Positions 30,747 through 36,224 of a stretch of 51,680 nucleotides of DNA are shown here, piece by piece; position 1 is the stretch's first letter; the number at the start of each line of letters is the position of its first letter. Both the position numbers and the translations under genes were made by a program. The notes beneath the pieces are model-generated. The model was not told where the DNA came from. It searched no databases and worked only from the letters and a program-made list of their open reading frames with translations. The stretch is from an uncultured Saprospiraceae bacterium (GTDB lineage: Bacteria; Bacteroidota; Bacteroidia; Chitinophagales; Saprospiraceae): positions 1 to 51,680 of the forward strand of contig CAKZVJ010000048.1 of NCBI GenBank assembly GCA_937923345.1, given 5' to 3'.

Positions 30747-30778
30747 TTTGACTCAAATAGTGATATACTTTATCTTTG
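30747..30778 (+). promoter_or_regulatory. Consensus Bacteroidota promoter of the tRNA-like RNA gene
   Basis: TTTG (30747-30750), 20-nt spacer, TATCTTTG (30771-30778): both boxes and the spacing match the Bacteroidota consensus exactly. Start is expected near 30785, about 29 nt ahead of the tRNA-like fold. Confidence 0.75.
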
Positions 30779-30813
30779 TCATAAAGATATCTTAAAATAG
30801 TTATCTGACACAT

Positions 30814-30970
30814 TGTAAGGTGATGAAATTGGCAGACATGCCCTCTTGTCTCGGGGGTGAAGATCACGGAATAAACTGAATATAACGAGCTGCTTCGGCA
30901 CTCTAGGGTTGACCACTCAATCTGTATTTATGCTAACCGCTTCGTGGAGGTTCGAATCCTTCCCTTACAG
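30814..30970 (+). tRNA. tRNA-like RNA (tRNA-Leu-type body, about 157 nt, with 88-nt variable region)
   Basis: The ends fold as a tRNA. Acceptor: TGTAAGG (30814-30820) with CCTTACA (30963-30969). D arm: ATG/CAT (30823-30825 with 30837-30839) with a Leu-type loop containing GG. Anticodon-like arm: CCCTC/GGGGG (30841-30845 with 30853-30857), loop TTGTCTC. T arm: GGAGG/CCTTC (30946-30950 with 30958-30962), loop TTCGAAT. Oddities: U1-A72, discriminator G, no encoded CCA (CAA follows), GUC in the anticodon position of a Leu-like body, U at position 37, and an 88-nt region in place of the variable arm. That region folds into its own stem (AAC-GAG-TGC-TTCG-GCA-CTC...GTT, 30884-30910). Promoter and terminator imply a dedicated RNA gene. 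It may be a non-decoding tRNA mimic, an interrupted tRNA or a degenerate tRNA. Confidence 0.6.
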
Positions 30971-30983
30971 CAAATAATTTTCA

Positions 30984-31015
30984 ATAGCCTCAAAGACGTT
31001 TATCTTTGGGGCTAT
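30984..31015 (+). terminator. Intrinsic terminator of the tRNA-like RNA gene
   Basis: A 13-bp stem ATAGCCTCAAAGA/TCTTTGGGGCTAT (30984-30996 with 31003-31015; one wobble), 6-nt loop, followed by the T-rich CCTATTTTAAATTTATTTT. Confidence 0.75.
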
Positions 31016-32296: not shown

Positions 32297-32513
32297 ATCT
32301 CGAAATTTAATATTAATATTTTACTAAAATTTGATGTTTTATCAATCGTCCCACAATATACTGACTTTATAATGGTTATAGTTTGACTTTCAATTTAATT
32401 TTATTTAGCCTTTTCAAATTTCTTATCTATAGGATATAGCATTACTCATTAATTAAAGTTTTTTTCAATCTCTCAAAATGAGGGAACGAAGATTCACCAC
32501 AAATTTTAATCGT

Positions 32514-34205
32514 ATGAATAATCTATTGAGTTGTATTATCCTAATCACCTTCACTGCTGGCCTTAGCGCACAGTGCCTCTCTGGCAATTGCTACAATGGA
32601 ACAGGCACCTACTTCTACAAAAGTGGAGCAGAGTACACAGGAACTTTCAAAAACGGAAAAATTAACGGTAAAGGCACTCTTCTATTTAGCAATGGAAACG
32701 TATATACCGGATTCTGGAAAGACGACTACCGGGAAGGTAAAGGAAATTTAGTATTTATTGATGGTGGATACTACACTGGCGACTTCAAAAAAAGTCAATT
32801 CAGCGGCTTTGGTGAATTCAACTATCCCAATGGAGATTTATATTCAGGCAATTGGGAAAAAAATGTTCCAGAAGGGCAAGGTGAATATAGTTTTGCAAGC
32901 GGTGATCAATACACAGGACAGTTTAAAGGAGGTAAATTCCACGGTCAAGGCACCATGCTATATGCAACAGGAGGACAATACATTGGTCAATGGGCATCAC
33001 ATAAAAAAGAGGGAAAAGGAAAAATTATCAATGCAGATGGTATCGCTCAAGAAGGTACTTGGTTGGCTGGCGAAATGGTCAGAACAGAAATGAGCACCTC
33101 GAATGAAAGAGCGCCTAAGAAAATCAAGAAGCAACAGAGAAACACAGGCAGCACTGCAAATTCTAAGAGCATCGTTAAAGATTGCAATAAGTATTTTTGT
33201 GATGTTGAAGAAGGTCAATATACTTATAGAGATGGCACTCGCTACCTCGGCCAGTTCAGAGGCGGAAAGCCTATAGGAAAGGGAACCGTATTCTACGCCA
33301 ATGGAGATAAATATGTCGGCAATTGGGACACCAATCGACCTCAAGGAAACGGAATTATTTACTTCAAAAATGGACGCGTGCTACATGCACTTTGGGACAA
33401 AGGTCAAGTCGTAAAACAAGTAGACAATATCAACAACATTCCAGAAGAAATAATAGAAGTAGACGAAGACAATGAAGTAAAAATCTGGTCCGTCATCGTC
33501 GGTGTATCTCGCTACACGCACATGCCAACTTTGAAATATACCGATGACGATGCATACCACCTATATGCCTTCCTCAAAAGTCCAGAAGGCGGTGCAGTAC
33601 CAGATGAGCAAATCACTGTACTTATCGACGAAGACGCAAACAAGGAGCAAATCATCAGAACTATGAAACGTAAATTTCACAAGGCTGACGCAAATGATGT
33701 TATCGTATTTTATTTTTCAGGACATGGATTTGACGGCTCCTTTATCCCATCAGATTATGATGGAAAAAATAATCTGCTAAGCCACTCAGATTTGATAAGC
33801 GTTTTAGAAAGTAGCCAAGCAAAGCACAAGGTTGTCTTTGCCGATGCATGCCACTCTGGAAGCCTCCAGCAAAATAATGCTCTTGCGGCGAAAGCTCCAT
33901 ACAGTAAAAAACTAAGCGATTACTACAATCAATTTAATGATTCTAATGGAGGGCTTGCACTACTAATGAGTTCTAAAGAAACTGAATATTCTCTAGAGGA
34001 TCATGGACTCCGCCAAGGCGTTTTCAGTCACTACTTGATGAGGGGACTCAAGGGCGAAGCCAACGCCGATAAAGATCGCAAGATTAGCATCAGCGAACTG
34101 TACGACTACGTCAGTCATAATGTAAGAAGATATACTGGCAACATTCAGAATCCTACGATTACTGGTAATTTTGACAAAGACATGCCTGTTGGCATGATAC
34201 GATAA
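32514..34205 (+). CDS. Exported MORN-repeat/caspase-fold (C14, metacaspase-like) protein, copy 1
   Basis: From the ATG at 32514 the protein has 563 residues and a clean Sec signal (MNNLLSCIILITFTAGLSAQ); an in-frame ATG at 32478 adds 12 charged residues and spoils it. A CLSGNC motif opens six MORN repeats (YTGTFKNGKINGKGTL type), a Ser/Lys linker follows, then a CNKYFC motif and two more MORN repeats. A caspase-like domain fills the last 230 residues: WSVIVGVSRYTHMPTLKYTD, the catalytic His in FSGHG (His416 counted from 32478) and the catalytic Cys in DACHSG (Cys458). Both catalytic residues are intact, so it should be a cysteine peptidase, perhaps Arg/Lys-specific like metacaspases. Export places it in the periplasm or outside the cell. 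A paralogue follows 372 bp downstream. Confidence 0.9.
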   Translation: MNNLLSCIILITFTAGLSAQCLSGNCYNGTGTYFYKSGAEYTGTFKNGKINGKGTLLFSNGNVYTGFWKDDYREGKGNLVFIDGGYYTGDFKKSQFSGFGEFNYPNGDLYSGNWEKNVPEGQGEYSFASGDQYTGQFKGGKFHGQGTMLYATGGQYIGQWASHKKEGKGKIINADGIAQEGTWLAGEMVRTEMSTSNERAPKKIKKQQRNTGSTANSKSIVKDCNKYFCDVEEGQYTYRDGTRYLGQFRGGKPIGKGTVFYANGDKYVGNWDTNRPQGNGIIYFKNGRVLHALWDKGQVVKQVDNINNIPEEIIEVDEDNEVKIWSVIVGVSRYTHMPTLKYTDDDAYHLYAFLKSPEGGAVPDEQITVLIDEDANKEQIIRTMKRKFHKADANDVIVFYFSGHGFDGSFIPSDYDGKNNLLSHSDLISVLESSQAKHKVVFADACHSGSLQQNNALAAKAPYSKKLSDYYNQFNDSNGGLALLMSSKETEYSLEDHGLRQGVFSHYLMRGLKGEANADKDRKISISELYDYVSHNVRRYTGNIQNPTITGNFDKDMPVGMIR

Positions 34206-34577: not shown

Positions 34578-36224
34578 TTGATGAATATAACACGTATCTC
34601 CCTCGCTACACTTTGTCTTTTTATAAGCGCGTCTATCTATGCGCAGTGCCTGTCAGGAGACTGCCAGGAAGGAATAGGAAAATATAGGTTTCCTAGTGGA
34701 GCTGTATATGAAGGTACATTTTTCAATGGAGAGGTACACGGCAAAGGCACTTGCTACTACTCTGACGGTAGCATTTATGACGGACAGTGGCAATATCGCT
34801 ATCCGCATGGTCACGGGTCAAAACTCTATCCTGACAAAGAAATGTGGACAGGCACCTGGGTCAAAGGGCGCCCAATCAATAAAAAAGGAAAAATTTTTGA
34901 TGAATCATTTATCAGTAAAGGCGCTACAGCTTACGATGGAACCGACATTCAGTTTGGCTGTATACAAGGAAATTGTGTAGACGGAATCGGTACCTATGCA
35001 TACTCTGATGGTAGCAAATATGAGGGTCAATTTTCGGAACATAAAAGACACGGTTGGGGTTCATTCTATTATTCCAATGGAGATAAATATGTTGGAGATT
35101 TCAATCGTAACTTTGAGGAGGGATTCGGCACGATTTACTACGCAGACGGAAGCCTAGCAAAAGGCTCTTGGTTTAAAGGAGAATTGCTGCGGGAAGATTT
35201 CGTAGCGAAAGGAATAAATGGATGTATCGAAGGGGACTGCCTAGCAGGAAAAGGAAAATTTATTTATCAAGATGGCGCCATGACATACGAGGGAGCTTTT
35301 TTGGATGGACTTCCAAATGGGCTAGGAAAATGCGTTTATGGAAATGGAGAAATATATGAAGGCGAATGGAAAAATGGTGGCTTTAATGGCAAGGGAACCT
35401 TGCACCTCAACGATGGCACCAAAATCAGTGGTCTTTGGCTAAACGGTACTTTGGTAAACACGATTACCGAAGATATCCCAGTTATTCCACAAAGCGCCGC
35501 AGCAAATACGCCTCAAGTGTGGGCCGTAGTTATCGGTGTATCTTCATACGAACACATGCAGACTCTCAAATACTCAGATGATGATGCATATAAAATATAT
35601 GCTTTTCTAAAAAGTCCACAAGGTGGCTCGCTAAAAGATAGCAATATAAAAGTGCTTGTTGATGACAACGCCACTAGAGAAAATATTCTTGGAGAACTTT
35701 CCAATACTTTTTCAAAAGCAGGGCCTAATGACTTGGTCATGATGTATTTTTCAGGGCATGGTCTCAAAGGGTCATTTTTGCCTATAGATTATGATGGCTC
35801 AAACAATAAAGTATTTCACCATGAAATCACTGAAATACTAGAAAACAGTCCAGCTAAATTTAAGTTATGTATCGCCGATGCTTGCCACTCAGGCAGTCTT
35901 TATACTGAGAAAGGTGCACTTAAAAATACCTTGGAATCGTACTACAAATCTTTAGCACAATCTAAACCAGGTATGGCCTTGATTATGTCTTCCAAATCTG
36001 AAGAGACTTCATTAGAAAGTAATAACCTGCGTCAAGGGGTATTCAGCCATTTTTTATTGCGTGGACTTAAAGGCGAAGCAGACAACAACAAAGATAAAAA
36101 TGTTGTGCTTCAGGAACTGTTTGACTTCATCTGCCACAACGTGAAGGAGTATACCTCAAAGCGTCAATCCCCAATCATCAGAGGCGACTACGACCCACAG
36201 ATGGTGATTGCAGTACACGAATAG
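34578..36224 (+). CDS. Exported MORN-repeat/caspase-fold protein, copy 2
   Basis: A 548-aa paralogue of the preceding gene. The signal peptide MMNITRISLATLCLFISASI ends before YAQCLSGDC. Three blocks each start with a C-x4-C motif (CLSGDC, CIQGNC near residue 133, CIEGDC near 215) and contain MORN repeats of the type YEGQFSEHKRHGWGSFYYSN. The caspase-like domain (about 315-548) keeps WAVVIGVSSYEHMQTLKYSD, the catalytic His in FSGHG (His394) and Cys in DACHSG (Cys436). The repeat blocks diverge more between copies than the caspase domains do. It has its own promoter. Possible roles are regulated periplasmic proteolysis, secreted peptidase or a stress/death effector; the sequence does not decide. 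Confidence 0.9.
   Translation: MMNITRISLATLCLFISASIYAQCLSGDCQEGIGKYRFPSGAVYEGTFFNGEVHGKGTCYYSDGSIYDGQWQYRYPHGHGSKLYPDKEMWTGTWVKGRPINKKGKIFDESFISKGATAYDGTDIQFGCIQGNCVDGIGTYAYSDGSKYEGQFSEHKRHGWGSFYYSNGDKYVGDFNRNFEEGFGTIYYADGSLAKGSWFKGELLREDFVAKGINGCIEGDCLAGKGKFIYQDGAMTYEGAFLDGLPNGLGKCVYGNGEIYEGEWKNGGFNGKGTLHLNDGTKISGLWLNGTLVNTITEDIPVIPQSAAANTPQVWAVVIGVSSYEHMQTLKYSDDDAYKIYAFLKSPQGGSLKDSNIKVLVDDNATRENILGELSNTFSKAGPNDLVMMYFSGHGLKGSFLPIDYDGSNNKVFHHEITEILENSPAKFKLCIADACHSGSLYTEKGALKNTLESYYKSLAQSKPGMALIMSSKSEETSLESNNLRQGVFSHFLLRGLKGEADNNKDKNVVLQELFDFICHNVKEYTSKRQSPIIRGDYDPQMVIAVHE

Follow-up and report, generated by a model that had tools for sequence, protein, structure and literature searches.

Architecture of the Locus

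The locus described here lies in a window of 51,680 nt (the whole stretch of DNA analyzed) from an uncultured Saprospiraceae bacterium. At positions 30814 to 30971, the window encodes a complete tRNA-like cloverleaf in which a structured insert of 88 nt occupies the variable arm. This mature-like span, running from position 1 to an encoded C74, rests on covariation and on a match to R1 (30811 to 30972, 158.9 bits), a model built from 32 copies of the family, of which the window copy is one. A Bacteroidota-type promoter, TTTG-20-TATCTTTG (30747 to 30778), precedes the RNA, and a 13-bp intrinsic terminator-like hairpin (30984 to 31015) follows it; both were read from the sequence. All features given here are on the plus strand.

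The acceptor stem comprises 7 bp, in which TGTAAGG (30814 to 30820; U1, G2, and U3 conserved) pairs with CCTTACA (30963 to 30969); 5 of the 7 pairs show double changes in the 32-copy alignment, referred to here as A1. The D arm (30823 to 30839) has a 3-bp stem, ATG/CAT, that covaries in four alignments, and a Leu-type D loop with GG (AAATTGGCAGA). It is followed by an anticodon-like arm (30841 to 30857; CCCTC-TTGTCTC-GGGGG) whose loop, UUGUCUC (G34, U35, C36, U37, and C38), reads GUC at the anticodon and matches the tRNA-Asp loop except that A37 is replaced by U. The T arm (30946 to 30962; GGAGG-TTCGAAT-CCTTC) has a TTCGAAT loop and covaries in A1. Positions 30963 to 30971 complete the molecule with the acceptor 3' strand, discriminator G73 (30970), and C74 (30971).

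The 88-nt domain (30858 to 30945; length checked) replaces the variable arm and contains three covarying helices. Helix V1 (30859 to 30862, paired with 30940 to 30943) has all cells paired and double changes at 3 of 4 pairs in A1. The 5' strand of V2 (30867 to 30869), which also covaries, and the internal-loop motif AAUAAAC together span 30867 to 30876; the commonest form of this motif in the family is GAUAAA-. Helix V3 (30877 to 30882, paired with 30925 to 30930) shows double changes at 6 of 6 pairs, with 87.2% of cells paired in the same alignment. A species-variable hairpin (30887 to 30903), taken from the minimum-energy fold of the insert and not conserved in sequence, is followed by a conserved one (30905 to 30917; AG-GG-UUGA-CC-A-CU, with a UNGA loop and a bulged A) recognized through family motif counts. 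The internal-loop partner UGCUAA (30931 to 30936), whose CUAA is invariant in A1, is succeeded by the 3' strands of V2 and V1, the three together spanning 30931 to 30943. The original prediction of a tRNA-like RNA with an 88-nt structured insertion in the variable arm thus held, as every feature that it listed is present in the sequence.

As to the surrounding genes, the upstream neighbor in the window is a 370-amino-acid gene, different from the Lrp/AsnC-type regulator found at other loci (see below). Two adjoining genes at 32478 to 34205 and 34578 to 36224 were noticed by eye; each encodes what we take to be MORN-type repeats joined to a caspase-like domain with a DACHSG motif. Genes of this kind recur in a neighborhood set of 24 loci, with 11 genes in 6 loci, window included.

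Detection by Standard Tools

The expectation that tRNA finders would miss this gene was also met. ARAGORN reports neither a tRNA gene nor a tmRNA in the window, and Rfam 15 finds no family there at gathering thresholds. A search of the whole genome with RF00005 at an E value of ≤10 returned 27 matches, and the window element is not among them. In five further loci (L095, L197, L217, L264, and L488), Rfam gave 22 matches, none of which are family copies, and no non-tRNA family. The exceptions to the blindness of ARAGORN are five compact phage copies and one relative that lacks the long arm, all called tRNA-Asp. A permissive Rfam scan yielded only weak matches, far below gathering scores; one of these, an opposite-strand match of a plastid group II intron model beside the element, was read as chance.

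Searched with blastn, the window copy matched nothing in the named phage and plasmid collections, nor did two phage copies match anything in the phage collection. We found no paper on this RNA family in the literature searched, although most subscription papers were outside that search. As neither ARAGORN nor Rfam finds the element in the genome at hand, it has probably not been annotated before.

Comparative Support for the Structure

Single-sequence fold energy says little about this RNA, being nonsignificant for both the whole molecule (z score, 0.19) and the insert alone (z score, −0.79), and the proof of structure is therefore comparative. Seven helices (acceptor, D, anticodon, T, V1, V2, and V3) were written down from A1. 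For its 32 copies, drawn from relatives, the share of paired cells is 97.7%, double changes occur at 21 of the 33 pairs, and none of 500 shuffles attained any of the measures. Paired cells amount to 98.6% in 62 distinct phage copies (24/33 pairs doubly changed), to 96.9% in 100 distinct rows from named-genome loci (24/33; 102 rows in all, including 3 weak ones), and to 96.5% in 37 model-found copies (21/33). In the last set, 36 of 500 shuffles attained the observed value of one measure, that of further pair types. Every helix is backed by covariation in all four alignments. It should be noted that the structure definition derives from the first alignment, while the other three were fitted to the model and are hence biased toward that structure; in addition, pairs of the bacterial sets have 2, 4, and 6 identical copies in common. 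Unaided, RNAalifold recovers all of the seven helices except D and V3.

These data bear on the simplest rival, namely, that the element is a tRNA pseudogene or a chance fold. Its unremarkable single-sequence fold energies and its invisibility to ARAGORN and Rfam would fit such a reading; conservation, covariation, promoters, and terminators speak against it. The original prediction had named a lack of covarying homologues and of a transcript, or decay of the stems in close relatives, as grounds for its refutation. Homologues with covariation were found, and this rival is ruled out for nearly all purposes.

The Long Arm and an Arm-Less Relative

Copies of the family range from 100 to 215 nt in length. 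Within the arm, V1 and V2 lead to an asymmetric internal loop, typically of the form GAUAAAC/GCUAA, beyond which lies V3. The UNGA hairpin, GGUNGACCA with a bulged A, is found in 130 of 218 distinct copies and missing in the other 88. Its second flanking pair covaries (GC in 51 copies, AT in 30, TA in 21, GT in 2, and unpaired in 26; n = 130), and across its three flanking pairs, 294 of 390 are paired, versus 248 (maximum, 266) in shuffles. Copies with and without the hairpin coexist in some multicopy loci (3 of 7 in A1, 2 of 16 in A2, and 3 of 7 in A4). The smallest relative, of only 81 nt (L488:837-917, in genome G129), lacks the arm altogether; it has the loop CUAUCUC (A34), is called tRNA-Asp(atc) by ARAGORN, and is followed 3' by what by eye is a strong terminator-like hairpin. 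What stays constant in the family is thus a cloverleaf with an Asp-like loop, onto which the arm is added as a domain with conserved core motifs. Such motifs would fit a binding site, for which we have no binding data.

An alternative raised in the original prediction is that of an interrupted tRNA, whose 88-nt insert would be removed by splicing. The position of the insert inside the tRNA body and the existence of the arm-less relative are in its favor. Against it, the arm is a conserved, covarying domain with its own motifs and not removable filler, the spliced loop would still have U37, and no intron family matches at the gathering threshold. We consider this alternative very improbable.

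Transcription Unit and 3' End

Sequences upstream of bacterial copies are rich in promoter elements. The −7 box TAnnTTTG is present in 84 of 152 distinct upstreams, compared to 15 on the reverse strand, 9 of 153 downstream, and 11.5 in shuffled sequences. The exact arrangement TTTG-17/21-TAnnTTTG occurs in 41 of 152 distinct 100-nt upstreams and in none of 153 downstreams (shuffled, 0.3). Of the 153 downstreams, 98 contain a terminator-like hairpin with a T run; shuffled sequences gave 3.2 and upstream windows 8. That the element forms its own transcription unit is inferred from sequence alone, the promoter having been shown only as a conserved sequence.

The 3' end conforms to local custom. 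Among 26 distinct ordinary tRNAs of the same genome, 20, including tRNA-Asp, end at N73-C74 without an encoded CCA; the missing CCA of the element is therefore no anomaly, and CCA addition would be expected, though it has not been shown. The G-C at positions 73 and 74 is present in 37/37 model-found copies and in 32/32, 97/97, and 62/62 distinct copies of the other sets.

Several claims of the original prediction can be settled at this point. The view that this is a dedicated tRNA mimic and not a standard tRNA held, given the homologues, the covariation, and the gene's own promoter and terminator. The exact promoter also held; it is of the ordinary Bacteroidota type, yet enriched far above control upstream of the family. 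So did the 13-bp terminator. The claim that the insertion folds by itself found no support in fold energy, its helices being backed by comparison, and the absence of CCA failed as an oddity. The prediction had not spotted that the loop has the identity of tRNA-Asp, that phages carry copies, or how deep the conservation goes.

Distribution among Bacteroidota

In a blastn search of 60 near genomes (own genome included), copies within the genus matched at 94 to 97% and those in other genera at about 69 to 89%, with several in tandem; some of the latter matches cover only part of the length. Carriers account for 30 of the 60, own genome included. The other 30 gave no copy under strict filters, and many of the genomes are drafts; with this proviso, the element is not essential everywhere.

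For a wider view, R1 was run over 395 sampled genomes of the phylum. True copies scored 92 to 162 bits versus at most 68.5 bits for other matches, the E values of the model being rough. Five subthreshold matches were inspected and proved to be four tRNA-Leu-like genes and the arm-less relative. Carriers number 40 of 395, own genome included, and fall in seven families: 6/6 sampled genomes in f1 (own genome included), 11/13 in f20, 7/10 in f22, 8/8 in f27, 2/3 in f28, 3/3 in f29, and 3/3 in f67. No copies were found in the other families of this sample. Host chromosomes carry 1 to 4 copies.

A search of 84,980 species genomes with an anticodon-arm pattern returned at least 120 stretches, with 80 loci listed, so that counts are lower bounds. 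All 80 belong to Bacteroidota by title, and R1 confirms a copy in each (those in L043 and L118 are truncated by the end of the locus). Named carrier genera include Chitinophaga, Dyadobacter, Algoriphagus, Cyclobacterium, Echinicola, Fulvivirga, Marivirga, Niabella, and Neolewinella. Chitinophaga pinensis (copy in L044) and Dyadobacter fermentans (L066) are among the carriers. Neighboring tandem pairs always lie on one strand (8/8 in A1, 19/19 in A2, and 8/8 in A4; the sets overlap partly).

A divergently oriented Lrp/AsnC-type regulator lies 121 to 250 bp upstream in 47 of the 80 named loci (e.g., L044:2441-2908). This call is based on Pfam for the L044 member, with which the others cluster by blastp. 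We interpret this neighbor as the sign of an old, vertically inherited locus, not as a proven functional link. SufB- and SufC-like neighbor clusters were also identified by eye near named loci. A search for a partner gene among 254 open reading frames around 24 loci gave only local synteny and no conserved partner. The family is shown to be present in host chromosomes and is old in several Bacteroidota groups.

Occurrence in Phages

A shorter pattern was used to search IMG/VR, again yielding at least 120 stretches, with 80 loci listed. These matches at first looked like chance; R1 then confirmed copies in 75 of the 80, at 87 to 148 bits, which establishes the family in phages as well. Genes for terminase large subunit, exonuclease, and PhoH are among the neighbors. 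ARAGORN calls a tRNA or tmRNA in 49 of 80 phage loci, and an independent tRNA or tmRNA is present in 40 of 75; left out of the latter count are the 5 copy-less loci, two of them with tRNAs, and 7 in which the sole call falls on the element site. Several loci are large arrays with 14 to 26 tRNA/tmRNA calls. The element lies 25 to 26 nt from a phage tmRNA in two loci (L241:4945-5119 and L265:1313-1486), and a tmRNA is found within about 740 nt in L210, L230, and L249 also.

At the other extreme, 13 of 17 whole phage records, all with the element, contain no RF00005 match (sizes, 20 to 93 kb). For 15 of the 17, the choice was made because no tRNA lay near the element, and the records may be fragments. 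A further caveat on the tRNA-free records is that RF00005 is blind to a second phage tRNA-like class, described in the last section. The hosts of these phages have not been shown, and Bacteroidota promoters before phage copies are only weakly visible: the −7 box precedes 11 of 61 copies versus 4.0 in shuffled sequences, and the exact full promoter precedes 0 of 61.

By eye, phage copies in L208, L235, L241, L242, L255, and L271 have an extra hairpin of ∼20 to 30 nt in the D loop, ahead of GG, and some phage copies have the variant internal loops GAAAUAG/UGAAU.

A Leu-Type Body with an Asp-Type Loop

The body of the element resembles tRNA-Leu. The D arm of the window copy closely resembles the one in tRNA-Leu(UAG) of the same genome. 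In A1, the long arm and the T stem are set apart by two unpaired bases, an arrangement known from Leu tRNAs.

The loop points to a different amino acid. Conclusions on the loop use the 37 model-found copies (29 loci), supported by A1, whose copies were found by blastn; the 37 were not drawn by loop pattern, but R1 was built from copies with such a loop. In the pattern-found bacterial and phage sets, loop letters were partly imposed by the search patterns. The loops in the 37 copies are UUGUCUC (16 copies), CUGUCUC (12), UCGUCUC (3), and CAGUCUC (3), with CGGUCUC, CUUUCUC, and CAGUCCC seen once each. U35, C36, and C38 are present in 37/37, and G34 and U37 in 36/37 each. Position 37 is a pyrimidine in all 37 and a purine in none. 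At position 33, 29 copies have U and the other 8 have C, A, or G. G73 and G2-C71 are both found in 37/37. The exceptions to the loop are one A1 copy (L040) with GUCAC, and hence A37, one T34, and one C37. In comparison, 27 ordinary tRNA-Asp genes in the examined loci have U33 in 27/27, A37 in 26/27, and YUGUCAC in 23/27. These 27 are what remains of 33 ARAGORN Asp calls after removal of 5 family copies and 1 member of another tRNA-like class, and some come from near-identical contigs. The constraint on the loop is thus shown.

The identity set of aspartyl-tRNA synthetase (AspRS) comprises G73, G34, U35, C36, C38, G2-C71, and G10. All of these but G10 are present: position 10 of the window copy, and usually of the family, is A, and the 1-72 pair is U-A. 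A match to a normal tRNA-Asp was found in 40 of 40 carrier genomes of the phylum sample (39 by blastn), and ARAGORN confirmed tRNA-Asp(GUC) in the 31 carriers with a locus examined; decoding therefore needs no such RNA. Judged from the sequences, selection looks as if it acts on recognition by AspRS and not on decoding. Among relatives, we found no extra copy of AspRS, and a comparison of AspRS columns between carriers and noncarriers (30 sequences) gave no signal, with 28 of 60 label shuffles scoring as high.

One rival holds that the RNA is a translating tRNA-Asp isoacceptor, whose U37 loop and arm would shield it from tRNA-cutting toxins or defense enzymes while it decodes GAC and GAU. The GUC anticodon, the location in phage tRNA arrays, and the ARAGORN calls of the five compact phage copies support this idea, as does the published general concept of phage tRNAs with nuclease-resistant anticodon loops (PMC10264068). 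Against it stand the non-U position 33 in 8 of 37 copies, the pyrimidine at 37, a large conserved domain that would be superfluous for decoding, the phage records without any other tRNA detected, and the host chromosomes with 1 to 4 copies and the same old neighbor in 47 of 80 listed loci. This rival remains possible.

A second rival is a regulatory RNA whose loop, (Y)UGUCUC, would pair with GAGAC(A) in a target, the tRNA fold serving as a scaffold for stability. The invariant U35, C36, and C38 fit pairing as well as they fit recognition by a protein. However, a site of 5 to 7 nt cannot be located by sequence alone, and these same loop positions, along with G73, are those of tRNA-Asp. We regard this reading as unlikely.

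Proposed Function

In our best reading, the element is an aspartylated, nondecoding tRNA mimic with a partner-binding long arm. This reading is an inference made without RNA-seq, charging, or binding data, and we hold it at slightly less than even odds. Under this proposal, a stand-alone tRNA-Asp mimic gene, composed of a Leu-type class II body, a tRNA-Asp anticodon arm with U37, and the variable-arm domain, would be transcribed from its own promoter. The transcript would mature like a tRNA and be charged with aspartate by AspRS. Charging is inferred because AspRS identity positions are kept, and the absence of ordinary decoding is inferred because U37 is fixed (with the exceptions given above) and position 33 is free to vary. 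The long arm, with its conserved GAUAAAC/GCUAA internal loop and, often, the UNGA hairpin, would hold a protein partner, and the RNA may be an adaptor or decoy that acts around tRNA-Asp and translation. The same activity would be the reason why phages keep it.

Several observations count against this reading: the missing G10, the U1-A72 pair, the single copies with A37, T34, or C37, the A34 of the arm-less relative, the lack of a partner gene or an AspRS signal in the searches above, and the 30 of 60 near genomes without a copy. Moreover, G73 and a long variable arm would also suit SerRS.

Another possibility that cannot be dismissed is that the element is an inhibitor or decoy RNA of a toxin or defense nuclease directed at tRNA-Asp, serving hosts as antitoxin or bait and phages as a blocker; charging would not be needed. 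The element is common to hosts and phages, is kept in phage records without detected tRNAs, occurs as tandem copies on one strand, and has a nearly invariant anticodon arm, all of which favor this view. Against it, no recurrent toxin or defense gene was recognized alongside (only the commonest neighbor clusters were annotated), and a mobile toxin-antitoxin pair would not be expected to show long-standing vertical synteny with a regulator of the housekeeping type.

Returning to the aspartylated mimic, a bolder version would make it an undescribed translation-linked RNA: an Asp-charged, nondecoding tRNA with a partner-binding arm, long kept by Bacteroidota families and carried by phages in which no ordinary tRNA is detected. 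The balance tips against this version. Within it, the RNA could conceivably be a bait, adaptor, or counter-bait in a conflict over tRNA-Asp.

Relation to Known tRNA-Like RNAs

Few bacterial tRNA mimics are well studied, with tmRNA and Y RNA as the main cases. The family is previously unlisted; it resembles tRNA mimics already described, yet by the tests applied here it is neither tmRNA nor Y RNA nor one of the T4 species RNAC and RNAD, and it lacks the loop features that define a decoding tRNA. Canonical tRNAs share with it the covarying cloverleaf arms, the TTCGAAT-type T loop, the D-loop GG, and the N73-C74 end. In contrast to them, the family has U37, a free position 33, and a structured variable-arm domain, and its window copy matches neither RF00005 nor ARAGORN. 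Like the family, tmRNA (ssrA) is a tRNA-like RNA with a large inserted domain, and some phages carry both; the family, however, keeps an anticodon arm and has its insert in the variable arm. Identity with tmRNA was rejected, as neither ARAGORN nor Rfam scored the window as such.

The Y RNA YrlA has been described as resembling the D, T, and acceptor arms of tRNA (PMC8394870) and is likewise a small RNA with a tRNA-like module and a second stem. The 5' and 3' ends of the family, by contrast, form an acceptor stem and not a Ro60-binding stem. Identity with Y RNA was rejected on two counts. Ro60/TROVE (PF05731) is present in 2 of 60 relatives, both carriers, versus the RNA in 30 of 60, and the Rfam scans described above found no family in the window and no non-tRNA family in the five further loci. 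Rfam does hold a YrlA model.

RNAC and RNAD of T4 (species 1 and 2 RNA; 139 and 119 nt) lie in a phage tRNA cluster and are stable RNAs whose roles are reported as unknown (PMC3014915, PMC9697503). No homology was seen, as R1 scored only 8.8 bits, confined to the RNAC T arm. Phage tRNAs with nuclease-evading anticodon loops (PMC10264068) share with the family an altered anticodon loop in a phage tRNA-like gene, but they are described as tRNAs proper, whereas the family is also found in host chromosomes and has a large conserved domain.

The family adds to the bacterial tRNA mimics an AspRS-type cloverleaf, in the inferred sense given above, with a conserved extra domain. Its carriers include genera with named strains (Chitinophaga, Dyadobacter, Algoriphagus, Cyclobacterium, and Fulvivirga) and at least 75 uncultivated phage contigs, so that roles in hosts and phages are both testable. 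Since some phage records have the element and no ordinary tRNA detected, it also bears on why phages carry tRNA-like genes.

A Second Phage tRNA-Like Class

A different tRNA-like class was observed in phages. It has near-constant ends, AGTCAGGTGGCG[AG]AATTGGTAGACGC...TACAGGTTCGAATCCTGTCCTGACTAC (A73 and C74), around a hypervariable center, and occurs in L215 (6141 to 6265, 7681 to 7833, and others), L222, L223, L225, and L339 to L416. One tested copy had no match in the named phages. At least 120 IMG/VR stretches were returned. With a fuzzy regular expression, 79 of 158 loci gave 131 matches in total and as many as 11 each; the match in L252, at least, is in fact a member of the main family. 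Of the 131, only 18 are called as tRNAs by ARAGORN. The 121 distinct centers fall into 108 clusters, and it is possible that this class represents a natural tRNA scaffold for variable inserts.
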